A stretch of DNA of 64,000 nucleotides from positions 11,629,495 to 11,693,494 of the forward strand of contig CM073328.1 of NCBI GenBank assembly GCA_037043015.1. Reading direction: 5' to 3'. The notes beneath the pieces were generated by a model. The model did no database searches. It saw only the letters and a program-made list of their open reading frames with translations, and was not told where the DNA came from. Of this stretch, positions 41,041-64,000 are shown in pieces (the stretch's first letter is position 1; each line of letters opens with the position of its first letter). Both the position numbers and the translations under genes were made by a program. Source of the stretch: Bryum argenteum. Taxonomy: Eukaryota > Streptophyta > Bryopsida > Bryales > Bryaceae.

Positions 41041-41658
41041 CTACATGCCGAACTTGACAACACGGAAGAACCACGGCACAGTACAGACAACAACAAGTGA
41101 GACCAGAAGCGCATTCCGAACAAGCTGACGCTGCCAGCAATACCTAAGCCGATTCATGGTCGTCGTCGTCGTCGTAGTAGTAGTAGTCCCTCCACCACCA
41201 CCTCTCATTTGATGCTGCAAACCTCCTGTCGATGGCGCGCCTTCCGATCTATCCACAGTCGCAGGAAGGTCCACAATCTGCACATTCTTCGCGGTTTCCC
41301 CACAAATCTCGCACACAGTGTTGCCTCGGATCTTGAACCACTCCTCGGCACAGTCTTTGTGGGAGCGCGACAGGTCTTGCTTGCATGCGCATCCGAGTAC
41401 TATGCTCTCGCTGTTGCCGGACGACAGGCCTAAATGGCATACCCTGCACACTGTCTCCCCCTCTGCTGCATCGTCCTTGGATGCGTTCGGGCGAATTGGT
41501 CCTAGCTCCACATCGTCTGAGAGGGATCCGTACTTTGAGGGTTGTGCGGGTGGGGGTGGGGGATCGAGGTTTACTACTACGAACTCCCCTGCTGGTTCGG
41601 TTGAGGATGCTTCTACTACTTGCCCTTGCCCTTGCCCTTGTCCTTGTCCCCCATTCAT
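41041..41658 (-). CDS. RING-CH (RINGv, MARCH-type) membrane E3 ligase-like protein
   Basis: Reading straight through gives 205 aa from the ATG at 41658 to the stop at 41041. Residues 2-13 are Gly/Gln repeats. The RING-CH finger is C4HC3: CRVC, CAC, SHKDC and CEIC, spaced as in RINGv domains (residues about 69-120). A Thr/Gly-rich linker precedes one hydrophobic C-terminal helix (NALLVSLVVVCTVPWFF). The family are membrane-anchored ubiquitin ligases, but the substrate here is unknown. A splice donor (CTTAG then GTATTG) lies at 41144, exactly before the last 34 codons. It allows use of the alternative exon at 39733-39829. Which form is major cannot be told from sequence. Confidence 0.85.
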   Translation of the reverse strand: MNGGQGQGQGQGQVVEASSTEPAGEFVVVNLDPPPPPAQPSKYGSLSDDVELGPIRPNASKDDAAEGETVCRVCHLGLSSGNSESIVLGCACKQDLSRSHKDCAEEWFKIRGNTVCEICGETAKNVQIVDLPATVDRSEGAPSTGGLQHQMRGGGGGTTTTTTTTTTMNRLRYCWQRQLVRNALLVSLVVVCTVPWFFRVVKFGM

Positions 41659-42560
41659 TGTGCTGCTGTTCGTTGTTTTCCTGCTACCGTTGTTTTTGAG
41701 TCCAGGAACTGATTAGGGTACACATGGTTGCGAAACCTGCAAGAATCAGGTACAGAAGTTTCGTTAGAGCACTGGAAGAGAGAGTGGCTTCACTTCAAAG
41801 TAGTGGGATAGCTGCGAACATGGTTACAGAAAGTTCAGCTAATGTTTTCGAGAGTTCGCTTAAAAATGGTGAGAGATAGCTACAAGTGAGGTCGAAATTG
41901 AGAGACAGGCAATCGGAACCTACAAAATTTCTGTACTCAGGAAGAGCTAACGATTTGAAACAAATTGGGGATCCGTTAAAAATGGTATGAGATTAGCTAC
42001 AAGTGAATGTGAGAGGTCGAAATCGCATAAGGCGAGAGACAGACAAACGAAACCTGCAAGAATCACGTAACCCAAATGTTTCTACTCGAGGAGAAGAGCT
42101 CTCGATAGCTCACGATAAACCCAATTTTCTGTGCTCGAGAAGAAGAGTCCACGATTTGAGAGAAAGAAAGTAGAGGTGCGTTAAAAATGATATAAGATTA
42201 GCTAACAATCGAGTTAAACAGACAGACAGACAATCTAACAAACCTGCGAAAGAGCGACCCAACATCGGAAGAATTCGGAAGAGCTAACGATTTGAAAAGA
42301 AAAGTGGAGCTAACGACTTGAAAGAGAGTGGGGGGTGGGGGGGGGGGGAGCTTCTTCGTTCAAAGCTGGTGAGTAGGGAGGAAGGAAGTAAAGCTACACG
42401 TGACAGAGTGAGTGAGATTTCTCGCACGTTCCGAAATTGCATAACGCGGCAAACCAACCGACAACCAACACAAACAAACAAACAAAACCCTAAAACACTC
42501 ATTCGACGACGACGAGGCGAAGAATCTACAGTGTTCGGAGGAGAGATGGGGTGTTTTGCT
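41659..42560 (-). promoter_or_regulatory. 5' leader region of the RING-CH gene with degenerate repeats
   Basis: A TTCTTGCAG acceptor-like site at about 41740-41750 (minus strand) suggests an intron in the leader. Related words (GAAACCTGCAAGAATCA) recur near 41732 and 42048, and CAAACCTGCGAAAGAGC near 42238. The rest of the stretch is similarly repetitive. Confidence 0.4.
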
Positions 42561-43119: not shown

Positions 43120-43560
43120 TTGTTTTTCCGGAGTAGGAAGATTTTTTTTGTATTTGTGTCAAGAATCTTTCACATTTTTGAATTTTTGGAAACTGATTTA
43201 TAGGTGTGTGAATTTTGAACTTTGAGGTTTGTGTACAATCATGGGTACCAAAGTGAGGATCATTTTGTACTTGTGTTAGGGATCTTCTACATTTGTATGT
43301 TTTTTGAACTTTTGGGAACTTACTTTTAGGTGTGTGAACTTTGAGGTTTGTGTACAATCGTGGGTACCAAAGTGAGGATCATTCTGTACTTGTGTTAGGG
43401 ATCTTCTACATTTGTATGTTTTTTTGAACATCTGGGAACTTACTTTTAGGTGTGTGAACTTTCAGGAGGTTTGTGTACAATCTTGGGTACCAAAGTGAGG
43501 ATCATTCTATACTTGTGCTAGGGATCTTCCACATACATATGTTTTTCTTCTTAGTTTGAA
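43120..43560. repeat. Tandem repeat of about 122 bp, three to four copies
   Basis: Each unit carries GGTGTGTGAACTTTGAGGTT, TGGGTACCAAAGTGAGGATC and TTAGGGATCTTCTACATTTG. Units start near 43202, 43329 and 43450, with partial copies at both ends. Confidence 0.75.
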
Positions 43561-43924
43561 AGTTTCGTTAGTGTGGGTGTTTGTCAGTATTGTGCTTTAA
43601 AAATGACTTTTGGGTGTGTGTGTGGTTGTAGGTATAAGTACATACTCGGACTTTCAAAGGACAAGTATATTCTTGTACTTTTGATAATTTGAGAAATGGA
43701 TTATAAGGAATCTTCTTGTATTCAAGTTAGTGTATTTGTTCAATACATTCCATGTCTGAAGATCTTTAATCTCTAAATGGTTTGACTCATTGATAGAAAA
43801 AAAAACACATTCTCGAAAAAAATGCCATAAATGAATACGAAAGTAAGTTATTTAGACCTTAAGTGTACAATCTTGTAGTAAACATACTATACATCATGTG
43901 AGTTAAATTTTGAGTCATGAGACC

Positions 43925-49290: not shown

Positions 49291-49294
49291 TTAA

Positions 49295-49321
49295 AACGGG
49301 TATTTAACTAATTCTGGACAA
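49295..49321. repeat. Left terminal inverted repeat of the giant element
   Basis: Pairs with 63189-63215, 25 of 27 positions matching. Starts directly after TTAA. Confidence 0.8.
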
Positions 49322-49874
49322 TTTGACAGTCTAGAAATCAATCGGCTACCGTCCGACACACCTCAAAGGAGCAAAACAAGGCAAGGTAGAAAATGAGAAT
49401 GATTGACATTATTAGCAAGTCGGAGAAATTATAGATGAATACACTCTTAGAGTAGGAAACAAATCCGTTTCATTAAAAGAATAAACGGATATTCCAAACG
49501 AAGCTCGTCCCACTAGCATGTGGTATCGGCGTGCAGCCGACTGCACTAACTTCGTATCAATAAATATTACAACACCCTATACAATATACAGCAACACTAG
49601 GTATCGAAGCAGACAGAAATTTAACATAGGTGAACTGCAGCCGTGTCGGCTCGCAGCCGATAAGCAGCAACGCGACTCCATCAGCGACTTCCTCCTTTCT
49701 GGCGCTCCATATTCAACAATCCAGGATATTAATCCCGGGCAAATCTCGATTTGAAGACCGACAGTGACAAGTCGACGAGTGCGAGTGCTGACCGGCTCAT
49801 CGCAAGTTGTGCTACACCGGCTGATCGCCTGAAGTGTCGGCTCGCAGTCGATAGGCATGCAGACTAAGTAAAAC

Positions 49875-50552
49875 CTAGGAACACTGCGATCTGAGAGAAA
49901 CACCGTACTTGTACTTGAGGGAATGAGCAACTTCATAATGAAGTTGACCGGGTCTATTAGAAAGACTCATATATTGACTAACAGATTCGAACTGGTATAA
50001 GGGGTAGATGAACGGAAGAATATCTGTAGCTACATTCGGAATAGTAGTACTTGAAGACGTCAAATCACCTCGAAAAGGATAAGGCATGTAGTAGGGAGCA
50101 TCCGGCGCCAACCTTAATGCCAGTGGAGAAACATCAACGAGGAGAAGCTGGTCGGGCCTGCACACCTCACGGGAACAACGCTTGCAATAGAGAGTCTTCA
50201 AGAGCTTGTAACACCATGGAAAATTCATAGGACGATCACAAAATTCTCTACCATAAACAAAGGAAAGCCTGTCGATGACGCAAGAAGGTAGAATGTAAGA
50301 TAGGAGAGGCCTCAAGTCACGCATCGGCATCGTATACCAGAGACCAACATGGAAGCGCTCCAACAACATGGCAAATAACTTCGTTACACCTGGCCGCTTG
50401 ATTACATTACGGTGAGCATTCCAACGATCCGTCGGAATATTAGGGCTGATGTAGCATAGCAATCCAGATACGGATAGAATGATACATTTATTGGAGGAAG
50501 AAGTATCAACAATGTCATAATCCAAACGGCAGTCACCCTGAACATTACAAGC
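49875..50552 (-). pseudogene. FCP1/NIF-like phosphatase domain with lost catalytic residues
   Basis: A splice acceptor (TTATTTCAG) precedes 50552, and an open frame runs to the TAG at 49875. No first exon could be fixed. The fold signature is visible: a strand where the nucleophile should be (KCIILSVSGLLCYI), then RNVIKRPGVTKLFAMLLERF and VGLWYT, and finally LLLVDVSPLALRLAPD. Active family members have DxDGT or DLNGT in the first motif and DDSP in the last. Here the first Asp is Ser and DDSP is DVSP, so it should be inactive as a phosphatase. It may be a separate gene or a relict duplicate of the domain in the fusion gene just upstream. Confidence 0.55.
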
Positions 50553-51151
50553 CTGAAATAAGTCAGATCGATGGTTAGAAAAGCAATAGACAGCAATAGA
50601 ATGATAAGGGCAGGCATATCGGCCGGCAGCCGACAAGAAGACAAAACCAATATAAACATAGAAGTGTCGGCTGGCAGCTGACAAAAGAAGAAAACAAACT
50701 AGAGAGTCCATGAGTAAAGACGTCAAGGAGACAATGACAAGAAGAAGCCATGGATCCTAAAGCTAAAAGGAAAACAAAAGCAAACACCAAATATAAGAAC
50801 CGATACCAAGAAAGGGAATATGATAGAAAACTCTCCATGTTAAGATTAAGAGAGTCTTCAAAAATTAAACATCCTCAAAATATACAGTTAAGAAAAAGTC
50901 TCGAGTGGAACCCTAGAAAATTTACAGAACTAGAAGAAAATCTAAGTGATCTATAAATTCTAGCTCGCTAGATCATCGAATTGGATGATTGAAAAATCTA
51001 TACACCCATGCTAAGGACATGTATTCATATGGTAATCTATGTAGGGTAACAAGAGGTGTATTGGTCGGCAGCCGACAACTGGAGCATCTTGAACTTGCTC
51101 CACCATCTTGAACAACTCGAACGCCAAGGTCGAGAAGTAATCAATCCATGA
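50553..51151. other. Spacer between the fusion gene and the FCP1-like remnant
   Basis: Holds three palindromes (50617, 50665, 51062). A small ATG frame at about 50750 on the minus strand could be a first exon of the FCP1-like remnant, but no good donor joins them. No other gene is seen. Confidence 0.4.
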
Positions 51152-51927
51152 TCACTCCCTCCTACCAAAATCAAGCATCCTGTACTTCTCGTACAACGGA
51201 TTTCCCGGGAGCATACGGCGCTTCCCTAACCTTGCGTGCTCCAGCATAAACTCAGGAATATTTTTCTGAGAATTATAGAGCTCGAATAACAGAGGCTGCA
51301 GAATCCTCTGAAAGTAAGGCTGGCCACTCACATTCTGCTCCGAGGTCAAAGTGCAGGTGTGAGGGTGGAACGCATTGTAAGGATTGTTCAAAACGTTCTT
51401 GTAGGGGGAGTCGTCGATGAGAAGCATGTTATCGGGATTAGCACCACGAGCCCTGAGGTCAGCACTCATTTCCAGGAGATGCTCAATTGACTTAATAAAG
51501 AAGGGCCGGTCAGGATTATCAGGCTCCCGGTAGCAACTCCGGAAGCAATATCCCTGATCAAACTCCAAGCAGTTCCTAGGGAGCATGGGACAAACGGAGC
51601 GAATAAATTCGATCCTCGGAGTAAGGTTCTTCGCAGTGACCGAGGACCAGAAACAAATTTGCCAGTCTGCATCGACGCAGAACTGAATTACTGACTGAAG
51701 GCCAGGTCTTGCCCTTGCCTCCTGCTTCTGCCACCGGGGACGATCCCCACCAGAAATGATCCTACGAGGAACGAAGTGAATGAGAGTGCCATTCACGTCG
51801 AACAAAATAAAATATTTACGACGGGCTACCTGCCCTCCAGTTGAGAGAGGAGTCGAAATGGAGGTGCCCTGCCGCGATCCATGAGACGCGGAGTCCACGA
51901 ACTCCTCGTTCTCAGATTCACCTGACT
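51152..51927 (-). other. FCP1/NIF-type phosphatase domain (exon 6 of the fusion gene)
   Basis: The last exon adds 258 codons. Motif I is DVNGT with the nucleophilic Asp, motif II is FWSS and the acidic pair is in IDDSP. FCP1 relatives dephosphorylate Ser/Thr, often the RNA polymerase II tail. In a mobile element such a domain is unexpected. Confidence 0.75.
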
Positions 51928-54717
51928 CTGCAAGAGATTAGAGCATTTGTACAATAAGCAAAAGAGCAGCAAGAATTACGCAACAAAGTGAGAAACGAGC
52001 GATACAGAGGTGGGAGTGGATACAAATAACATCAAACACCATGATAGAAGGGAGAAGAATAGTGCAAAGAAAGGACATGATGACTTGTCGGCTGGCAGCC
52101 GATAAGCCGAAAAACACTGTTGAGAGAAATCGACATCGGAGACAAGGGATACAGGCGGAAACGTGAAACGATAATAGGGAGTCGGCTGGCAGCCGATACA
52201 GTCTTACAGGGGAAGGAACTGGCCGAGCACGTTGCAACCAGGAAATTCTAATAACAAAACCATTCTAGAACCTAAAATGCTTATGCAATGGTGAGAAGAG
52301 ACTATATACAAGAAACGCCGTCGTCTAGGACAAACCTTCAGGTAATTGTTGTTGCTGCGGGGAAACATGATCCGCCGCAGGTGGAGACAGAGCCTCGTTC
52401 GGGGCGTCGATGGCGAACACATTGTCGTCTACGAGGGCCGCCTTGTTTGGGGCGCTGATGTCGTACACGTCGTCCTCCTGGAGAGCCTCCTCATTTGTAG
52501 CGATGATGTCGTTTGCGTCGTCCTCCAGGAGGGCCGCCGAATCAACAGCAACTTCCCTTCGAGTATAGAACGCCTGCAATGCCGATTGAGCCCTCTGAAC
52601 TTCCCTACATGAAGGAGCGGGAGATGTCGGCTGCCGGCCGATAAGGGCAGGAACGGATTGCGAAGGACTCTGAGGGGCACGAGACGGAGGAACCTGCTCC
52701 ACAACGATCACCTCGTCCTCCGGGGCGTTTTGCAAATCAAGCTGCATCGTGGTCGCAGCACAAGAAGACAAATCTGCTGTAGTATCAGGAGGTGGTGCTG
52801 ACACGGTGATAATGTGTCGGCCGGCAGCCGATACAGGCGGAGGGATGAGTGTGGCAGTCGATTCAGGGGGAGCCGTCGGCGTGGTTGCAGGTGTGAGTGA
52901 CATAGGAGTAAGATCAATCTCCTCCAGCACTTCCTGAATCCTAACACCAGAGGCGGGACGTCGTCCAGGGTTGGCAGGCTCGCGGGACGAGACTGAGGGA
53001 CCAACGTCGGTCTCCATATCCTCGGAAGACGACGGTGGAAGCTCGATCCTATCCAGGTTGAGTCCCTTCGCACGTTGGACTGCCAACTTGACATGGTCCT
53101 GACTTCTGACGAACTCGATCACGGACCTCCCATTTCTCTGCAAGACCAAGAGTAAGAGACTCAAGGGAACCAAACAAGTACTGGAAAACGAATAAGGTGA
53201 AATAGACCAATATTAGAAGGTGTCGGCTGGCAGCCGATACAATGCAAAGGAGAGGATGCCTTACCAATCCAAGCTCGGTGACGTTTCCGCCACCCCAGAC
53301 GTTGATGACGGTGACCTTCTTCGCGGTGAGAGTTGGCTTCAACAACTTCTCGAGCGTGTCATGGTCGACACCGCAGAATCCCCCATTCCAATCGACAGCA
53401 CGTTCAGGAGATGCCTGGAACCAATCGACTGGCTTTACGATTCCAGTATACTTCCTGAAAGTCGTCCAACGATCATCATCCCGGCGTACCTTTGGGTACG
53501 TCATGTTTAGTATAACAAGCGGGGAAGATTTTGTCACCGTCTTCTTGAACCCCCTCCCCCCCGAAGACACGGCTTGTAATAGACCGTCTGAACATACCAT
53601 TCCGTATCTTCGGTTGTCCAGACAGCACAAAGAAGATCCCATTGCTTCGCGCTCGTTATGAACAACATCGGGATTGGGCTCAGAGGCCGAGTCGGAGTGA
53701 CGTCGTCACCGTCCATCGTGAGGTCCTCATCTGTGAGTGGGACCTTCGACCGTTCCGCGAGCGCACGAAGATCCGATCTACTGGTTGGAACCGAGACTCC
53801 GCCATAACTGTACCCGAAGTAGACGATAAGGAGTGGGTCCTTAGCAATGACGGTATGGCCAACAGCTGCGTCGATCTCGTGCAAGACATCTGCAACTGTG
53901 TCCGCGAATTTGCACTCGAAATGCGCCTTCCCGGCATCGACCTCCTCCGTCGTAACCTCGACCTGAGAATACGTCTGAAGGATGGTGCTGAATATGGGCG
54001 GCGCAACACCGTTCTTCGACTTGTCAGTCGTCGGATTCATTGCGCTGGCGCGACCATTGAGCCATTCATTCCCATCCGTATATTTCTTCAGGTCCGTCCA
54101 GATGTTGCGAACGACACTCGGGGTGAAATGGTGCTCCTTCGCCAACTTGTCCCAGTCTGAATCTGGGTATGGCGAACAGTTCGCATCCTTGCAGGGAAGC
54201 GGATACTTACTAAGCTGATACATAAGCTCGTTCATAATCACCCGGTTGAGCTTCTTGTCGCGGCACCAATCCGGCAGTGTGAGTCTGTCCTTCGTCCTGC
54301 TGTTGGCCTTGATGTAGACACGATTCGCGATGACCTCCGCTGCAAGCTCTTCAAGGTTGCAGTCACGGAGACCGAGTGTGGGGACAAGGTCAGTCTTCGT
54401 GATGTTCGAGATTGGAGTCCGCTTGATCAGTTCCGGCTCTTTGCCGTCGTCGCCAATGAGCTCACCTGCTTCCTAGGCATTGAAGACCTCAATCCAAGTA
54501 TTCCAGGCCTTGTCACCGACGAATATAAGGGGAGCTTCGTAGACACCTTCTCGTTCACGAAGTGCGCCATGACTTGTGCCTTCGCAGCCTGAAGAACAAC
54601 CATAAAGATTTAGATGTATGAAGGCAAGAAGAAGAGCTGTCGGCTGGCAGCCGATAGCTGTAGATTAATGAAATGTGTCGGCTGCCGGCCGATAGAAAAG
54701 GCAGAGGGTAACGATAC

Positions 54718-55215
54718 CTCGAAGGCCGGTGACGGCTTCCCGCCTCCCTTGTGTGGCTCAGGGCACCCGAGATGCTTCCATGCCGCCCTCCCGAGTTCCG
54801 CGCACGATCGGAAGTTTTCTTTCGCGACCTTCTCTGCGATATTGAGATTGAGAGCGTTCGACACCCTCACAAGATCGATGGGGTCCCTTGAGAACACTGG
54901 GATAATCTCGAATTCAAGAAGCTCCTTCTTGGCTTCCGATCCGTTTGGGAACTCATCTGCCAGCTCGCGGCAGGCTTTCACTGTATGCTGACCTCCGATG
55001 ATATACCAGTGGACGGTAGGGTGTTGCCACCAGGGGATTTTCGGGGTGGTGTCGGGGTCTGTGTCGTTTAGCATCCACATATCCAACTCCCCTGGCATGG
55101 AATCCATCACAGCCATCATCCCCATATCGGTTTCAAGTGGCTCCCGTTTTAGCGGAATACCATGGATCTCAGGCTTCTTCCGGATCGCCCCGTAGCCCTT
55201 GTAGATGGCCTTCAC
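54718..55215 (-). other. ParB/sulfiredoxin-like domain (exon 3 of the fusion gene)
   Basis: One exon of 166 codons holds nearly the whole domain. The motif IIGGQHTVKACRELA takes the place of the GxRR nucleotide-binding box of ParB, and a helix with SNALNLNIAEKVAKENF follows in the position of ParB's ALxEN helix. ParB family domains bind CTP or act as nucleases. Here Arg residues of the box are replaced by Gln-His, so the ligand cannot be predicted. Confidence 0.65.
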
Positions 55216-56260
55216 CTGCGAAGAACATAACAAATGAACAATCATGAATCAGAGATGATCAGAGGATGTATCGGCTGCCAGCCGATACATAGAGCAGTAC
55301 CTCATAAGAGCAGGTGAGAAAATAAAAATACCTGGCCCAGACGATCTTTCGCGATGCGTCTGTACTTGAGCTCGTCCGGAGCGATGTGTAGCTTCTCGCT
55401 AGGAATAACCCCCGGCAGCCTCCGCTTCTTGTAGGGGAACAGGTGACCAAGACCAGTCTCCAATGCCTTGTAGATTGCGTCGATCTCGACGTCCTTCATC
55501 TTCGAGGTCATTTGGTTGCCCTTAGTCAGGGCCTCGTCTAGGGAATACTCGATGGCATCCTTAGACAATTTTGCCCGTCTCTTGGGCTTGCTGGGATCTT
55601 GTGACCCCTGGACAATTTCATCGTCGTCATCGCCAAGATCAACCATTTCTGCTGCAGGTCGCTTCTTCTTCGAAGGAGTTGGCTTCCTCTTCGACGACGA
55701 TGGAGCCACAGCCGCTGCTGCATTGATGGCGTTGTTAATTGCCAACCTAGCGTAATCGATAGCGGCCCACGCGTCCATGAACTCCTCGATGGTCGTAGGC
55801 GCAGCTCCATTGAAGGTCATGCCCTGCTTAACCGCCGGCTCACCGCAAACCGCCTCAGTGCATGTTGCCCACGGCATTGATACGGCGATGTAGTCGGTCG
55901 GGGCAGAGGTATCCCTCAGGGCCGGTAGGCTTATGAGAATGTCGACGTGCTCCACATTCTCCAAAATTTCGAGCACATCACCATACCCAGGGATCATATT
56001 ACCCTTGTAGAGGTACGAGCAGGCAATCTCGATTCGCTGGCTGGGGAGGACTCTCCAGCATAGTCCCCACTGCTGGATGGTTGGATTAGCCGCCCATACT
56101 GCACGCGGGACGATGTCTCCATGCTTGACATCCGTGTGTGCAAGCTCAACACCAAGCAGTCTAGCTAGGACTGGTAGTTTTCTGCAGAATAAAGACATGT
56201 GAGAGTATATTAGTAAACGCCAGTAAACGTATACTACTGTATATCACTGAACGCATATCT

Positions 56261-56660
56261 TATCGGCTGCCAGCCGATAACAACCATGGTATCGGCTGCC
56301 AACCGATAGCGACAATGCACAAATATTCAGCGCTAACATGCATTAGTTACGATGATAGTCTAATGATCTATAGTAAATAGCATGCTATCGGCTGCCAGCC
56401 GACAGAATAGAAGCTATCGGCTGCCAGCCGATACACAAGGCAATGTAACGCGCTAAAGCAGAGGAGCTACTAACGGCCCGCGAGTACACTAAGCATTACA
56501 AGCGAACATGCTACAGCATAAGGGCTATCGGCTACCAGCCGACACACTAAGCACTATATTGTAAGTGAATACATCACTCGATCTGTCGGCTGCCAGCCGA
56601 TAGCTTGTGAGCTATCAGCTGCTAGCCGACGGCTCACAAGCTATCGGCTGACAGCCGACA
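56261..56660. repeat. Cluster of eight palindromes in intron 1 of the fusion gene
   Basis: Intron 1 (56182-56756, 575 bp) carries eight copies, the highest density in the element. It follows a 17-nt first exon that encodes only the start codon and five residues. Confidence 0.85.
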
Positions 56661-56773
56661 CACAAGGCACAAGAAGATGACGAAAAGCTGCAAATGAAAC
56701 GACGCCAATCGAAACGGCGCAAACTGAAACGTCACAAAAGAGCTAAATCGGCCTACCTCTTCGACGACGCCAT

Positions 56774-58015
56774 CGGAGCTGTATCGGCTGGCGAGTGCTC
56801 GGTGTCGGCTGGTGCGTAAATTGCCTCCGCTCCCGCGCAAAGCTGTCGGCTGGTGCGTAAGGAATGTCGGCTGCTGCCTCCGCTCCCGCGCAAGGCTGTC
56901 GGCTGGAGCGTAAGAAATTTCGGCCGGTGCTAGAAACCCTAAACCCTAAAACTAAACACTATCAGCTGCCAGCAGAGTAACGGCTAAGGCAAGAAAGCAG
57001 AGAGGAAAGGTAAGAGCATGAAAGCAGAGAGGAGAGAAACATCAAGGAAGGAGAGATGAGACAGCAAGTAGCGAATGAGAGGAGGAGTGAGCAAGTAGCA
57101 AATGAGAGGAGAGAAATAGAAGAGAGGAGAGAGCGCAAGTGTGGAGAGAGCAAAAGTGAGAGGAGAGCGCAAAAGTGAGAGAGGAGAGCAAATTACAAAT
57201 AAGGGCAAATGAGGGAGGGTGAACGGTTTACCCCCTCCGCGATTTTCGTAATGATGGCTATCGGCTGCCCGCCGATTTGCGCCTTGCCCGCTTTTCAATC
57301 GGCTTGCCCGCTCTCGCATCCGCTTGCCCGCCCGCCAAAATTTTCTGAAGCTCGCGCCGCCAAAACGTCATTTCAAATTTTTCATCCATTTCATCATGCT
57401 TTTCATCCTGCCTAGCAATTAGCCCTCCAAAAATTCAAAATCATTTGAAATTTGAGTTTGAAATCTTCTTGATTTGAGCGCCATCCACGCTCTGTCGTTT
57501 CAGATGGCTATCCATTCCCAACTGTTTCTGACATTTCATTTCATTTCTCGCGTGTTTCCTGACGCTCTGAGCGATTTGCTTTGCTGTTTTTGTAGTTTTC
57601 CCTGGCCAGAAATAGTCAAGAATTGCGTCATTGTGTTCCCCGTGTTAGTGCGCTTCTTTCTATATAGAGAGCGGTAGATAGCAGCCTTTTATTACTTCAA
57701 TTTGCACGATTTAATAGCTAGAGGCTCAATACCCTGGTATTAGACGCCAGCCGACATAGTGAATGACACCAGCCGATACGATTCCTTAGGAATCAGTCGG
57801 ATCTCCTTATATCGACTGCCAGCCGATATAGAACTATCACGTGTCCGTCATTGTCCTGTCTCCCGGGTTTTGCAGAACAAGGTATCGGCCGGCAGCCGAT
57901 ACCTCAGGTGGTTGTGTCTACTGCACCTGTCTCAATATTTCCTACGTCTCCTCAACCTTTTAGATTCGCAATTGTGTCGGCCGGCAGCCGATAGATCAAG
58001 AGATCATGCTCCATC
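56774..58015. promoter_or_regulatory. Divergent control region between the two element genes
   Basis: The two start codons at 56773 (minus) and 58016 (plus) point away from each other. The region has six half-palindromes (TGTCGGCTGGTGCG-type) at about 56782-56930, an AAACCCTAAACCCTAAA telomere-type word at 56935-56952, an AG-rich stretch at 56990-57200 and five or six full palindromes. A TATATAGA word is at 57660-57667. No start site can be fixed. Confidence 0.5.
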
Positions 58016-61000
58016 ATGCTGGAAACCGAACCGATTGACAACTTTCTCAAGAACGGCGGTTCCGGGAGATGGCGTATAGAAAAGGGCGCAGTTGTCGCTC
58101 TGTCATTCGCAAAATTTTATTATGCCGGTACTGCTTCTATCAACCGAATTATCTCGCGAAAGCCATTTCTTTTAGACGTCCACGTTATTGACGTCGCTCC
58201 AAATATTGAGATGATCATTCCGTTTCCCACTCCTAGCATTAAGTTTCTTAGTCAGTGTCCTGGTAACAACATTACATGGGACGTGAATGACGTGAGTCCC
58301 TTCGTTGATAACCTCGATGAATCATCCGAGCCTATCGGCTGCCAGCCGACACCGGGGCCATTAGATGAGAAGCCCATAAATCAGTTCCTCACTCTCTCTG
58401 TTAACATGGAGGTTGCTCTATTACATGTTGACGGGATCGATCATCACTGTGTCGGAGTGGGCGTCATCGTTGAGTGCTCGCCTAAGGGCACCTGGGAGGG
58501 TTTTCGCGTTCCTCATAGCTTCTTTGCAGTTGTCAAGCTCACTACGGTGTATAAGGACTTTGTTGGTCTAGTAGCGTACTGTGAGAATCCTTCTCTCACT
58601 CTGCTTGGCGAGTGCCTTGGGTACGAAATCCTTTGGAGCGGTTACAAACTTCGTCTCCTCGATGCTACGCCGCTGAATGGCAACTCTATCGGCCGGCAGC
58701 CGATACACCCCACGCTGAGGAGTGTCAAGGTTGAACCCCCCAGCGATGACGGTGGCAAAGACTCACCCTCTACTGACTGCTGTGGTAGTTCAGATAACCC
58801 GCATCATTCAACCGGTCTCTCTCATTTTGAGGGCAGCGACGACTGTGGGTCCGGGACGAATCCGCCAACCCGCGTCGATGTCCTCTCCTCTCAAGGAAAT
58901 GAATCTGCTAATGATCTTCATGCTACGCCGTTTGACAACGGTATCTTCTCGCAGCCCTCTTCGGATAGTTCTGGCGGCGATAGCGCTGTCAACTTTCGCC
59001 CCTCTGTCTCACGCGAAACTGAAGATTTGCGACCAGAACCTCAGGCGGTCCTGGATCGGCCCGACTGGAGGAACAAGTGCTGCGACCTACTGAACGAGGA
59101 TCTTACCTTTTTTGGCAGGCAATCATTCAAGTCTGTCTTCCGGATGAAGCCTGCGATGAGGATCTTCTTGGCAATACAGATGTGGGAGTAATGTTCATAT
59201 CAGAGCACGATACCCTACAGCTCACGACAATGAGATGGCCTCTTTCGCGGACTCGACTTAAAGGCGGTCAACTCCTGTCAGACATTGTCATGCTCTGCTC
59301 TGAGGCCGCTCAGAATTCCACCTTCGAACATCCGGGACTTCAGGGCGTGCCTCGGAATCCCTACAGGTCCGTTCGTCGTAGACTCTTGTCAAAGCAGCAG
59401 CCCGCTGGGTCTAGGCTTAAATCGAAGACCTCGGATGATGAAATTCGCAAGGTTAGTTCACAGTTGTGCTGCAAGAGTAGGTGCTGTCAGACGTTTCCGT
59501 AGGAGTCTACTCGAATCCTTCGTCGTAAGTACTATGCTTGCTCTTTTGAAATTAGAAGAGAGGCAGCGTATGCCGTTCAAAGTTAATTTCATGTACATGA
59601 ACCGGGAGGCAGGAAATTCATCACGCTTGAGAATGTTGAGGTCTGCGAGAACGCTTGGTATATCATTCACGGTGTCTCCAGATCAGCTTACCACGTCTAC
59701 AAGGCTGCAGCAATGGGTGGATCAGTGAGCGGATCGCATGGCAATTCTGGAGCTGTTCGTCCACGCCCGCATACGATTCAGGCCAGAGCAACCCTGCAGA
59801 AGATTATTGACGAGAATGCGGACCAGATGCCTAACGAGTTCAGGCTTGTTGGAAATAAGCGAGTTGACAATCTGAAGGTTGTTCCATCTGCGCTCAACTG
59901 GGACACCATGCGCGAGCAAGTGAATCAAGTAAGTCCCAATCATTCTTATTTCCTCTTCGTCCTCGATGTCGGCTGCCGGCCGATACACTAGGTTGTTATG
60001 TTTCCGTTGTTTCCAATTAGACCATTCTTCTTTTTCTTCTTCTGTCAATTCCGTCGTGGCTTATCTAGTCAATGTTGTGCTACTTGTCGGCTGGCAGCCG
60101 ATACTCCGTTAGCGATTAGTTCCTGCTTATGTCAGTGCACTCCTGTCGGCTACCGGCCGATAGGAGGCGTCGACCTGGATGTTAACATCCTTCTTTATCT
60201 CCTCCTTCCAGGTGAATATCAAATGCCACCATAAGCCGGTCTCTCAGTCCACCATCAGTCAACTTCGAAAGAACCACTTCAAGAACGTCGAGGTTAAAGC
60301 TGTTGGGAGCAGCTTCTCTAAGTGTACTGAGTGTGACTTCCTTGTGGAGTGCATATCCAAGTACCCAACGGGCTGTGATGAATGGCAGGCATTAGTCGAT
60401 AACCGGAATCGCCATCTCAATTATCGCGTGCTGCCGCCATATATATATGTGGCCGGAGTTCCCGATCTGCGAGAACCCCTCTGAGTTTCTATGTATAATC
60501 CATGACAAGATGGATACCACGAAGACGGCCATTCCCAGAATGCAGAGGATTACAAAAGCCACTGCTGGCCTTGGACAGATTCCGGTTTCTGTTACCGGCA
60601 TGTTGACACACGGCCACGGTGATGGTGCGACGCACACTACTCCACAACGCGCTCGGCCGGGGATTCCAACTTCACCATCTCTTCTTTGTGTGCGTCTCTG
60701 CGAGCGCTTGAGAAGCCACCGTGCGTGAATCCCGGGAGCTCTTTCCCACACCTCCACAGAACAGCTTCTTCCAAGCTTTGCTACATGGAAAGTCTAGGTG
60801 TTTCGCATCGATCCCACCCGCCACCGGGACTCAATTCGGTCCTTCACAACCTGGACGTCCGCTCGTTCCGCTTCCGCGAAAGCTATTCCTGCAACTTGAT
60901 AATTCCGCAAAGGACAATAAGAACAAATTTGTGATGGCCTTCTGCTCTTTGCTGACCGCTCGGCGCATTTTTAAGGAGGTCACTGTTGGGTTCCTCATTG

Positions 61001-62193
61001 TTGGCCACACTCACGAGGATATTGATGCCCATTTCAGTTACCTTTCCGAGCTCATCAAGCGGAAGAACACGTACGTTCTAGGCGATCTCATGAAGGCCTT
61101 TATGGACTCGCAGAAGACAGTCGCGTTCATTCCTGAATTCATTCAAGAGGTTGCGGATTTCAAATCCTACGTCAAGGACTTTCATCACGACGGTGTCAAC
61201 AAAATTGTTGGACTTGGTGATATGCATCTTTTCAAGTTTTGGGTCGAAGAGGACGGAGACGATCGCGGCTGGCCTGTCATGAGGTATAAGCGGAAATCCA
61301 CTGATTCTTCATGGCTCCCACCCGGTCCCCCCGTCAAGATGTGGACTTCTGACGAGCAAGGAAGACCTAGAATTCCATCTGGCGACCCACGTCCTGTTCC
61401 ATTTAAGCCGTTATGGGGCGTCACGGAGGTGAACCCCAACAAGTTGAACTCTGTGAAGGAGCAAGCTCGTGCCTCGGAGTGCAATGACAAACAGGGTTTC
61501 ATCAAGCACGGTATTTCTAAGTTCATTGAGTTCTGGAAGTTCGGTATGGCGCGTAACAGACGTTACTGCGAGGAGATGGCTGGACCTGTTGGCTACTGGG
61601 AGCGAATCAACCGAGAGATCAATTCACCATTACCGTCTACCCCTGACGTTCTTGTGGAAGGATTTTGGCCTATTTCAGACTGGACTCGTGATCATTCTCG
61701 TGCCTCCCAAGATTCTGGATCTAGCTCCTCTTTCTCACAGGACATTACGCTTGAGGATGATGCAGATGCTTATTCTTACTGTGGTCCTGCTAAAGACCGA
61801 CCGAGGCTTAACTTTAATCCATTCCGTGATGTTCTTCTTGGCGACTTCGTCTTATGCCGCCCCAGCGACGACCATTTCTTTCCTGTCTGGCTGGGGCGTG
61901 TCCTTGAGTGTGTTGATCTGACGCCTGGTCCTAACTATGGCAATTTCAAGATCGAATGGTGGACCCCTATGCGAGCTAAGAAGGAAGGAAAATCGATCAT
62001 CGCTAGGGAGTGCTGGACTCGCCGCTGGCATAAGGAGCCTTGTCTTCCTCAGATTGTGAATGTCAACATTGTTCTGTTCTCTCATAGGATGCCGTCACAT
62101 GCAAAGAAAGGTCCACCAACTACACATATCATTCCCGAGCAGGCCGCTGCAGCTGCAATGTCTAACCTTGAGGCCGCTGGAGCTGTTCTCTAA
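58016..62193 (+). pseudogene. DUF7869-like transposase-related gene, frameshifted
   Basis: The ATG at 58016 opens a frame to about 59110. The part with VALLHVDG, FRVPHSFFAVVKL and LLGECLGYEILW is not recognised with certainty. The frame then moves to others near 59110, 59500, 59610, 60440, 60625 and 60715. One intron is clear (59929-60211, GT-AG, three palindromes). A Cys-rich segment (SQLCCKSRCC) is followed by VCENAWYIIHGVS and CTECDFLVECI. The core then reads IIHDKMDTTKTAIPR, LTHGHGDGA, LQLDNSAKDNKN near 60890 and VGHTHEDIDAHF near 61000; these spaced Asp, His and Asp residues resemble an RNase H-type nuclease. The end has VWLGRVLECVD and WWTPMRAKK, and the stop is at 62191-62193. I assign the family from memory of its motifs. 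It is the best candidate for the transposase, but that is inference. Confidence 0.65.
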
Positions 62194-62904
62194 GCTGTTC
62201 CTCATACATTTGTATCGGCTTCCGGCCGACACGCTTCATGTGAGCCTCCCTCGCATCCTCCCACTCTATGACGGACCTGCTCTGCACTTGTCGGCTGCCG
62301 GTCAATACTGATCTCATATGCTTTCGCTCTATCAACTCCGTCCTTCTATCTGCTGCCGGCCGATACTGATCTCATATGCTTTCCCACCAGAAACTCCGAC
62401 CTCCTATCGGCTGCCGGCCGACACCACGCTCTAGCCGCTGGTTCTTATCTGACTCACCTCACTACTGCGTTTAATGTCTATAATCCGTGCATACCCGTTG
62501 TATTTTTGCTACGGCATACTCATCATTATCAATATGCTACAGCTCATTCCATTACTCTTGTTTTCGGTCTTTCCTATCCATGACAGTTGATTGGAGTATA
62601 TTCATCGTTTTCACGATTGTAGCGTTCATTGGTTGCTTTGTTGTACTTCCTCCTTCTCTCTAGTATATTGTTTCTCGGCTGGCGGCCGATAAGTGACTTT
62701 GCATTGTATCCATGTATCCCTCTCAATCATATTGAATTGATCTGTGTATGAATGAGTGTGCAACCTTTTGGATTCCTTTTCTGAGCTAAGTTCTGAAATT
62801 GTTACTACTACTTCGTCATATTCCTTGGGCTTCTATCGGCGGCCGTCCGATACAAAATTTCAGCTAATGTGGGTTGGGGACGGGAACTGTAGTCTACGGT
62901 CTAA
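62194..62904. other. 3' flank of the DUF7869-like gene inside the element
   Basis: Holds six palindromes (62213, 62289, 62347, 62405, 62673, 62834). The part from 62213 to 62423 has four within 210 bp. An ACTGATCTCATATGCTTTC word is duplicated near 62307 and 62365, so part arose by local duplication. No gene is seen. Confidence 0.55.
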
Positions 62905-63012
62905 GGTTCAGGGTTTAGGGTCTAGGGTTCAGGGTCTTTAGGGTTTAGGGTTTAGGGTTTAGGATTTAGGGTTTAGGGTTTGGGGTTTAGGGTTTAGGGT
63001 TTAGGGTTTAGC
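62905..63012. repeat. Interstitial telomere-type TTTAGGG array
   Basis: About fourteen units of TTTAGGG with several imperfect ones, roughly 105 bp, near the right end of the giant element. Sequence continues normally on both sides, so it is not a chromosome end. Confidence 0.9.
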
Positions 63013-63188
63013 GGTTTTAGTTGTATTGGCCTTCGGCCGATATAATTTAGATAGTTTTTTTTTTACATGCACTTTTCAATATATAGTGCTTGATTTTCAA
63101 TATATCTTGTTTGGTTTTCTGTTATTTATTAATCTGCCATACATTTTGATACTTATGTTTTTAGTGAAAATATCCATAAGTTCGGAAT

Positions 63189-63215
63189 TTGTCCATAATT
63201 AGTTAAATATCCGTT
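63189..63215. repeat. Right terminal inverted repeat of the giant element
   Basis: Inverted match to 49295-49321; ends directly before TTAA at 63216-63219. Confidence 0.8.
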
Positions 63216-63219
63216 TTAA

Positions 63220-64000
63220 GTAAATAGGAGCCTTAGACTTTTTTGATTGGACAATTAATTGAATTTCTTTCTCTTTTGAAGATTGGAATGGGTATTGGAT
63301 TCTCTTACATTTTTGGAAATGCAAAGAAGATGTTGCATACCCATCTCTGAGCTTCTTCTTTGCAATTGTTGTCTCAAATGTGGCTGGGTAGTGTGGTAAA
63401 GGCCTCAGTCCCGATTTCCTTTTTCCCAATTTCTCAATTTCCTCCTCTTCGTTATCCATGACTGCAAGGGATATGGCTTGCTCGGATTTTTTGAACAGTA
63501 GTTCGAATATGGTTATATGGCCAAGTTGACCAAACCCCAGCATCTTCCTTGCCGCTGGTATTCCAAGCGTTCGCGTTCAGCGGCTGTTTTGGCCATTGCT
63601 GTAGTTCCTCGAATTACATCCAATTCCATTGGAACTGGTCCGGAAGCCCTGGAATTTGTTGGAAACCGGCCCACCCGATCTTGTGTGGGAGCAGATGACG
63701 ACAAGGAAGGTCATCAATCTTAGCGTCGAGACCACAATCTCTCGTCAATCCTTGACGCCATTGCCATCCATTCATATAGTCGGAGTGGTTGCGTCTCGGC
63801 GGTTGCAATGGAGTCGAAGATCTCATATTTCAACCCTCCTCTAAACCGAGCCACTAAACTCGCCTCGTTCCAATCAACCTGCGCAACATGCTCATTAAAT
63901 GATGAGATGTATGAAGCTACTGCTCCGGTCTGGCGAATCCTTCCTAGTCCGTCTTCGGCATTTCTCCGGCGATCCATATCTCCATACACCGCGATCACTG
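63220..64000 (-). pseudogene. Chromovirus gag, upstream part of the split retrotransposon
   Basis: On the minus strand a retrotransposon gag domain is seen: SYISSFNEHVAQVDWNEAS and VARFRGGLKYEIFDS near 63915-63830. A stretch with PMELDVIRG follows, then a degenerate zinc knuckle (RCWG...GQLGHI) near 63540. A tail reaches KAPIYL near 63225, where the giant element interrupts it. Frame changes occur near 63720 and 63535. It continues past the end of the window. Orientation and order match the pol part at 44292-48363. Confidence 0.82.

Follow-up and report, generated by a model that had tools for sequence, protein, structure and literature searches.

A giant, most likely Sola-like DNA transposon family in the moss Bryum argenteum, with an accessory protein and dozens of element-specific palindromes

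The stretch of the Bryum argenteum genome analysed here (GenBank assembly GCA_037043015.1, contig CM073328.1, positions 11,629,495 to 11,693,494; 64,000 nucleotides, hereafter the window) contains a 13,921-bp element that belongs to a real family of cut-and-paste DNA transposons of ~14 kb, present in many copies in the genome and most likely representing Sola-like giant transposons. Its best new feature is a conserved, probably non-catalytic accessory protein paired with dozens of element-specific palindromes. The genome searched comprised 259 Mb in 25 contigs, the window being C8:11629495-11693494. An earlier note, made from the sequence alone, had taken the element for a TTAA-flanked one of unfamiliar gene content.

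Extent, ends and target duplication

The element and its borders are as follows:

49291..49294, no strand: left target duplication, TTAA in the window copy (from end pairing)
49295..63215, no strand: whole element, 13,921 bp, the matches of other copies beginning and stopping there
49295..49324, plus strand: left terminal inverted repeat (TIR), matching the right end at 27/30 positions
63186..63215, minus strand: right TIR, the partner of the left one
63216..63219, no strand: right target duplication, TTAA in the window copy (from end pairing)

The search with the ends, by which the earlier note had proposed to look for further copies, bore out the family: at least 40 places were scored for the left end and at least 40 (wide) for the right one, the window copy included, with nearly all end matches beginning at ~49295 and stopping at ~63215. 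Ten other full-length copies measure 13,845-14,211 bp and, together with the window copy, exhibit 92-97% pairwise identity. The inverted ends reported in the note are also confirmed, the arms at 49291-49324 and 63186-63219 being 34 nt long and 91% complementary, with 27 of 30 positions matching once the TTAA flanks are removed; the element starts with AACGGG (49295) and ends with ...CCGTT (63215).

Concerning the target, TTAA does flank the window copy on either side; the note's claim that it is the target and duplication of the family is, however, refuted. All 20 further copies with both ends paired carry perfect 4-bp duplications and none of these is TTAA (TAAG, TAGT, ATAA, TTGG, CATT, CCTT, TAAT, ATAC, TCAA, ATTA, CATA, ATTT, ACAA, TTGT, ATAA, ACTA, TAAT, TCAT, ATGT and AGAT), so that their borders are of the kind the note itself had named as contradicting its proposal. 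The pairing was done by hand, 20 pairs being used out of a larger number that could have been paired. A second family has the 4-bp duplications TATA and TGAG in both testable members, its third member (family C) yielding one true end only. In 23 duplications, with that of the window copy counted, A and T together account for 74 of 92 bases; with A and T frequencies of 37/92 each, TTAA is expected ~0.6 times. A single copy with TTAA is therefore unsurprising, since the duplications lean to AT: the TTAA flanking the window copy is a coincidence, and the target is any four bases with an AT leaning.

The transposase gene and the accessory gene

The plus-strand gene consists of the following parts:

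57995..59131, plus strand: conserved block 1 on the side of the transposase gene, 49.6% identical in family C, under purifying selection
59107..59499, plus strand: conserved block 2, 69% identical in family C
59587..59958, plus strand: conserved block 3, 78% identical in family C
60209..60427, plus strand: conserved block 4, 72% identical in family C
60428..60721, plus strand: part of the transposase in which the motif IIHDKMD (60495-60515) holds the first catalytic Asp, its frame broken in the window copy
60721..62190, plus strand: DUF7869 core and tail (Pfam E 2.6e-35), 79% identical in family C

The gene encodes a DUF7869 protein, modelled as having an RNase H-type transposase core in D-D-E arrangement; the core contains the motifs LQLDN (60889 ff) and GHTHEDID (61003 ff). 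DUF7869 bears no transposon name in Pfam and is unmentioned in the literature searched.

The minus strand carries the accessory gene and a further frame:

55329..56183, minus strand: accessory gene, N-terminal block, 49% identical in family C
54715..55218, minus strand: accessory gene, tentative ParB-like block with IIGGQHT (54982-55002), 69% identical in family C
53555..54469, minus strand: accessory gene, middle block including the first part of the methyltransferase fold, 50% identical in family C
53235..53564, minus strand: accessory gene, methyltransferase-fold part containing TYPK (53490-53507) and WGGGN (53283-53300); its frame differs from that of the block before it in the window copy and agrees with it in family A
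53030..53140, minus strand: accessory gene, next conserved block, the family C match being 28% over a longer stretch
51173..51895, minus strand: NIF/FCP1-like frame with the motif DVNGT (51785-51802), 44% identical in family C

The earlier note had seen two divergent spliced gene remnants. The divergent orientation and the interrupted frames hold, the latter as homology blocks, the borders of which in both genes are homology limits, i.e. putative as splice sites. Purifying selection was found on the transposase, the accessory gene and the NIF-like frame (family B excluded from the analysis). The Pfam search of the element's proteins that the note had suggested yielded, besides DUF7869, PF03031 for the NIF/FCP1-like frame (23.2 bits at a cut-off of 21.8), which may be a gene of its own or the C-terminal part of the accessory gene. 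The active-site motif of NIF/FCP1-type haloacid dehalogenase (HAD) phosphatases is DxDx(T/V); it is absent from all four frames read (the window, family C, L062 and L063), which have DxN instead. Three 48-bp repeats (52392-52535) sit in phase inside the minus-strand frame coming after the methyltransferase-like part.

The second half of the accessory protein models as a DNA N4/N6-methyltransferase fold. Active N4/N6 DNA methyltransferases possess the catalytic motif (D/N/S)PP(Y/F/W), and none of the 19 relatives covering that stretch without gaps has it, the other 10 of the 29 rows being gapped there and left uncounted. For the WGGGN stretch, 17 of 29 rows were likewise gapped and uncounted, one of them, P0128, departing from WGGGN. 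The lack of the catalytic motif in all 19 covering relatives suggests that the function kept by the accessory protein is to bind and not to methylate. The ParB-like label rests on a motif pattern judged by eye. Among the literature matches listed, as far as titles and beginnings of abstracts go, an accessory gene of such a kind is unreported from a land-plant transposon.

Dispersed palindromes

The third component of the element is an array of short palindromes:

49340..63042, no strand: 41 dispersed palindromes TRTCGGCYGSCRGCCGAYA, each with a match at no fewer than 15 of 19 positions

The first of them starts at 49340 and the last at 63024, and at the same threshold there is none in the 49,290 bp left of the element; 50 mononucleotide shuffles gave a mean of 0.1 and a maximum of 1. 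Sites of this type number 31-41 in each of eleven copies and 49 in element A. They spread over the introns and the central intergenic region without concentrating at the ends: the coding blocks hold only two of the 41, the remaining 39 lying outside, compared with ~21 expected inside because the blocks cover 7,273 of the 13,921 bp.

One exact palindrome form is present at 256 places genome-wide (127 + 129), its reversed control at none. On contig C1—where this count of proximity, like the gene pairings given below, refers to places entered by hand, with all other contigs omitted along with a number of rows for fragments belonging to one copy—83 of 100 listed exact copies are situated at most 15 kb from a transposase match (3.9% for random places); of the remaining 17, 14 have a ParB-like place no more than 3.4 kb away, the lists being compared by hand. 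Three exact palindromes (C1:911480, 7529198 and 23974151) lie away from listed places of either kind and may be fragments or independent.

The locus of lineage F on contig C5 contains no site of the TRTCGGCYGSCRGCCGAYA type; it has 38 matches, with up to four mismatches, to another palindrome, CATCGGGCGATCSCCCGATR, which in turn is matched nowhere in the window element and once in the remainder of the window. Both forms have the half-sites RTCGGS...SCCGAY in common and differ in the spacer, which among strict sites is 5 in 27/27 cases in the window element, 30/32 in A and 31/33 in C, and 6 in all 16 of lineage F. Between diverged families the palindromes occupy largely different positions. Near confinement to the element, a position mostly outside the coding blocks and dependence on the lineage are to be expected of sites bound by a protein that the element encodes, which is what the palindromes probably are.

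Constancy of the gene plan

The arrangement of the accessory parts, in both order and strand, recurs across diverged lineages of the genome. On C1, a transposase place lies no more than 15 kb from 31 of the 65 ParB-like places, against a random expectation of 1.9, and 30 of these pairs are arranged head to head; similarly, a ParB-like place is found within 15 kb of 40 of the 68 NIF places (2.8 expected), and 39 of these 40 are located downstream of it on the same strand. In the deepest tier, with identities of 42-49% for the transposase, ~35% for the ParB-like part and ~30% for NIF, a transposase of that tier is found at most 30 kb from four of the 21 ParB-like places, on the opposite strand in all four cases, and six of the 14 NIF places lie at most 30 kb from a ParB-like one, on the same strand in all six. 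In lineage F, the transposase at the C5 locus is 47% identical with an open frame of 646 aa, the ParB-like part being 35% identical.

The places L059-L063 (C5:10190202-10235900 in part; C1:6926157-6931261) represent a third, deep lineage, whose transposase frame is open over 646 aa and whose palindrome differs. Since the C5 places for its ParB-like part, NIF and transposase extend over ~42 kb, the elements of this lineage may be far larger or contain nested insertions. For both the DUF7869 protein P0081 and the accessory relative P0162 (29% identical), the longest contig listed has 184,697 bases, so that the same gene pairing may exist in another organism.

Relationship to known elements

The comparisons given here follow the cited papers as far as their excerpts go. 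Sola elements encode a DDD transposase, produce 4-bp duplications and have TIRs of 11-1124 bp; they are mostly 2-9 kb long, some exceeding 15 kb, and are present in the moss Physcomitrella, being uncommon in flowering plants (PMC10741241). Sola2-type elements with AT-rich 4-bp duplications can, moreover, carry Fanzor1 genes (PMC3627910). The window family resembles them in its AT-leaning 4-bp duplications, in all 20 copies as well as in both members of the second family, and in a TIR of 30 bp (27 matches) that falls inside the range mentioned (PMC10741241); further likenesses are the size range, the occurrence in a moss and the uptake of extra genes, and the DDD/E-type core, as modelled, would be another (PMC10741241, PMC3627910).

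The closest published plan is that of Sola1-1_Ec32 from the brown alga Ectocarpus, a giant TIR element of 21.5 kb in which a gene with ParB-like and N4/N6 DNA methyltransferase domains lies opposite the transposase, its product having been proposed to bind to the element that encodes it and to modify it (PMC12477816). The window element likewise has its accessory gene opposite the transposase; compared by description, it is shorter (13.9 kb), lacks the catalytic motif, has a ParB-like part unrecognised by profiles and carries a NIF-like frame and palindrome arrays, none of these last four features being mentioned for Sola1-1_Ec32 in the excerpt (PMC12477816). The gene content described as unfamiliar in the earlier note is thus only partly so: the transposase belongs to a Pfam family and the plan has a brown-algal counterpart. 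In phages, fusions of ParB folds to N6_N4 methyltransferases are reported to be frequent (PMC12704722). Together with ParB/parS, they offer a possible analogy for a protein that combines a ParB-like part with a methyltransferase fold and is encoded near many palindromes, although ParB profile support is absent in the window protein.

The only point in common with piggyBac is that TTAA flanks the window copy, and the note's judgement that it does not look like piggyBac proved sound: a DUF7869 domain stands in place of the piggyBac transposase domain, and the 4-bp duplications are free, those of the 20 other copies being other than TTAA. Kolobok elements duplicate a TTAA target, and the same 20 copies speak against them. 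The TG...CA termini of Ginger differ from AACGGG...CCGTT, and CACTA/EnSpm, although also large plant TIR transposons, have CACTA/G ends and a 3-bp duplication instead of AACGGG ends and 4 bp (PMC10741241). On the strength of ends and duplications, all four groups are excluded.

Proposed function and alternative explanations

The explanation favoured here, which we regard as rather probable, is a giant cut-and-paste transposon of the Sola type with a palindrome-binding accessory protein. The transposase would cut at AACGGG...CCGTT and insert at staggered 4-bp targets. The accessory protein, with its methyltransferase fold devoid of the catalytic motif, would bind the palindromes and form an element-specific nucleoprotein domain, which might control gene expression, the assembly of the long element for transposition, or both. 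An extended version is put forward only tentatively: a ParB-like pseudo-methyltransferase would read dozens of lineage-specific palindromes and build a centromere-like nucleoprotein domain, protein and site would have co-diverged into two or more forms (spacers 5 and 6), and the methyltransferase and HAD folds would be under selection without their usual catalytic residues.

Several points weigh against this explanation. The filing under Sola is by features and description, not by homology of the transposase to Sola proteins. The Z score of the transposase model is below 8, where a match may reflect no more than a common arrangement; with a pLDDT of 71 the accessory model is weak, and neither model reached E of 0.001 or less in Foldseek. 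PF02195 (ParB) has no match in the genome at E of 1 or less, and the ParB-like block matches no ParB profile of Pfam, NCBIfam or PDB. Most deep-tier places are partnerless among the best candidates listed, and for lineage F the ends and the duplication were not found.

It could also be the transposase that binds the palindromes. CACTA elements carry repeated protein-binding motifs, their subterminal repeats being transposase binding sites, and the palindromes would be their equivalent, with the accessory genes serving otherwise. This alternative is possible, though less likely: palindromes accompany the elements and occur near both ends too (49340 and 63024), but they lie throughout the element, over introns and the central intergenic region.

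Somewhat less likely is a DDE superfamily of its own, distinct from Sola and sharing with it solely the 4-bp duplication. The nameless state of DUF7869 in Pfam and the literature searched, together with the descriptive nature of the comparison, would suit it; on the other hand, the duplication, the TIR length, the size and the presence of Sola in a moss all agree with Sola (PMC10741241, PMC3627910), and the accessory architecture matches an element filed by its authors as Sola1 (PMC12477816).

That the palindromes are small selfish hairpins spreading in elements, tolerated outside exons and bound by no protein, seems improbable. Many near-identical, mostly noncoding copies at positions that largely differ between diverged families are what such hairpins would produce; they hardly leave the elements, however, as the C1 proximities indicate, and lineage F has a related half-site with a different spacer. 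An endogenous virus or virus-derived element is very improbable in spite of the large size and the accessory genes, the transposase core and the ParB-like block having no relatives in viral contigs (tblastn, E of 1e-3 or less) and the ten frames scanned containing no structural or replication gene by Pfam. A TTAA-specific element such as piggyBac or Kolobok, to which the borders of the window copy alone would point, can practically be dismissed in view of the other 20 duplications, the ~0.6 TTAA expected by composition and the lack of a piggyBac-type Pfam match in the same ten window frames.

Telomere-like tract and surroundings

A further feature lies near the right end:

62895..63020, plus strand: telomere-like TTTAGGG tract, in 11/11 family copies and in elements A and E

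In all 11 copies the tract sits 211-333 bp from the right end, with 5-12 GGTTTAG units (a stray unit elsewhere being counted in two copies); elements A and E of the second family have nine and 12 units near the right end, B has one unit and lineage F none.

As for the host sequence, which the earlier note had taken for a chromovirus on either side, the left flank does show Pfam matches to RVT_1, RT_RNaseH and the integrase C-terminal domain on the minus strand at 44.5-47.3 kb, i.e. Ty3/Gypsy; on the right, a 125-aa frame (63202-63576) has no Pfam match. To the left of the retroelement there is a gene with a RING-variant domain (PF12906, 36.2 bits; 41044-41712, minus strand), and a 114-bp unit is present in three tandem copies at 43224-43579.

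Significance

DUF7869, whose function Pfam leaves unnamed, gains a transposon context. Accessory genes of the ParB/methyltransferase type are known in giant eukaryotic transposons, with binding proposed, the site itself not being named in the excerpt of the Ectocarpus text (PMC12477816). The window family offers a candidate for such a site, which makes the proposal that these proteins bind their own element (PMC12477816) testable.

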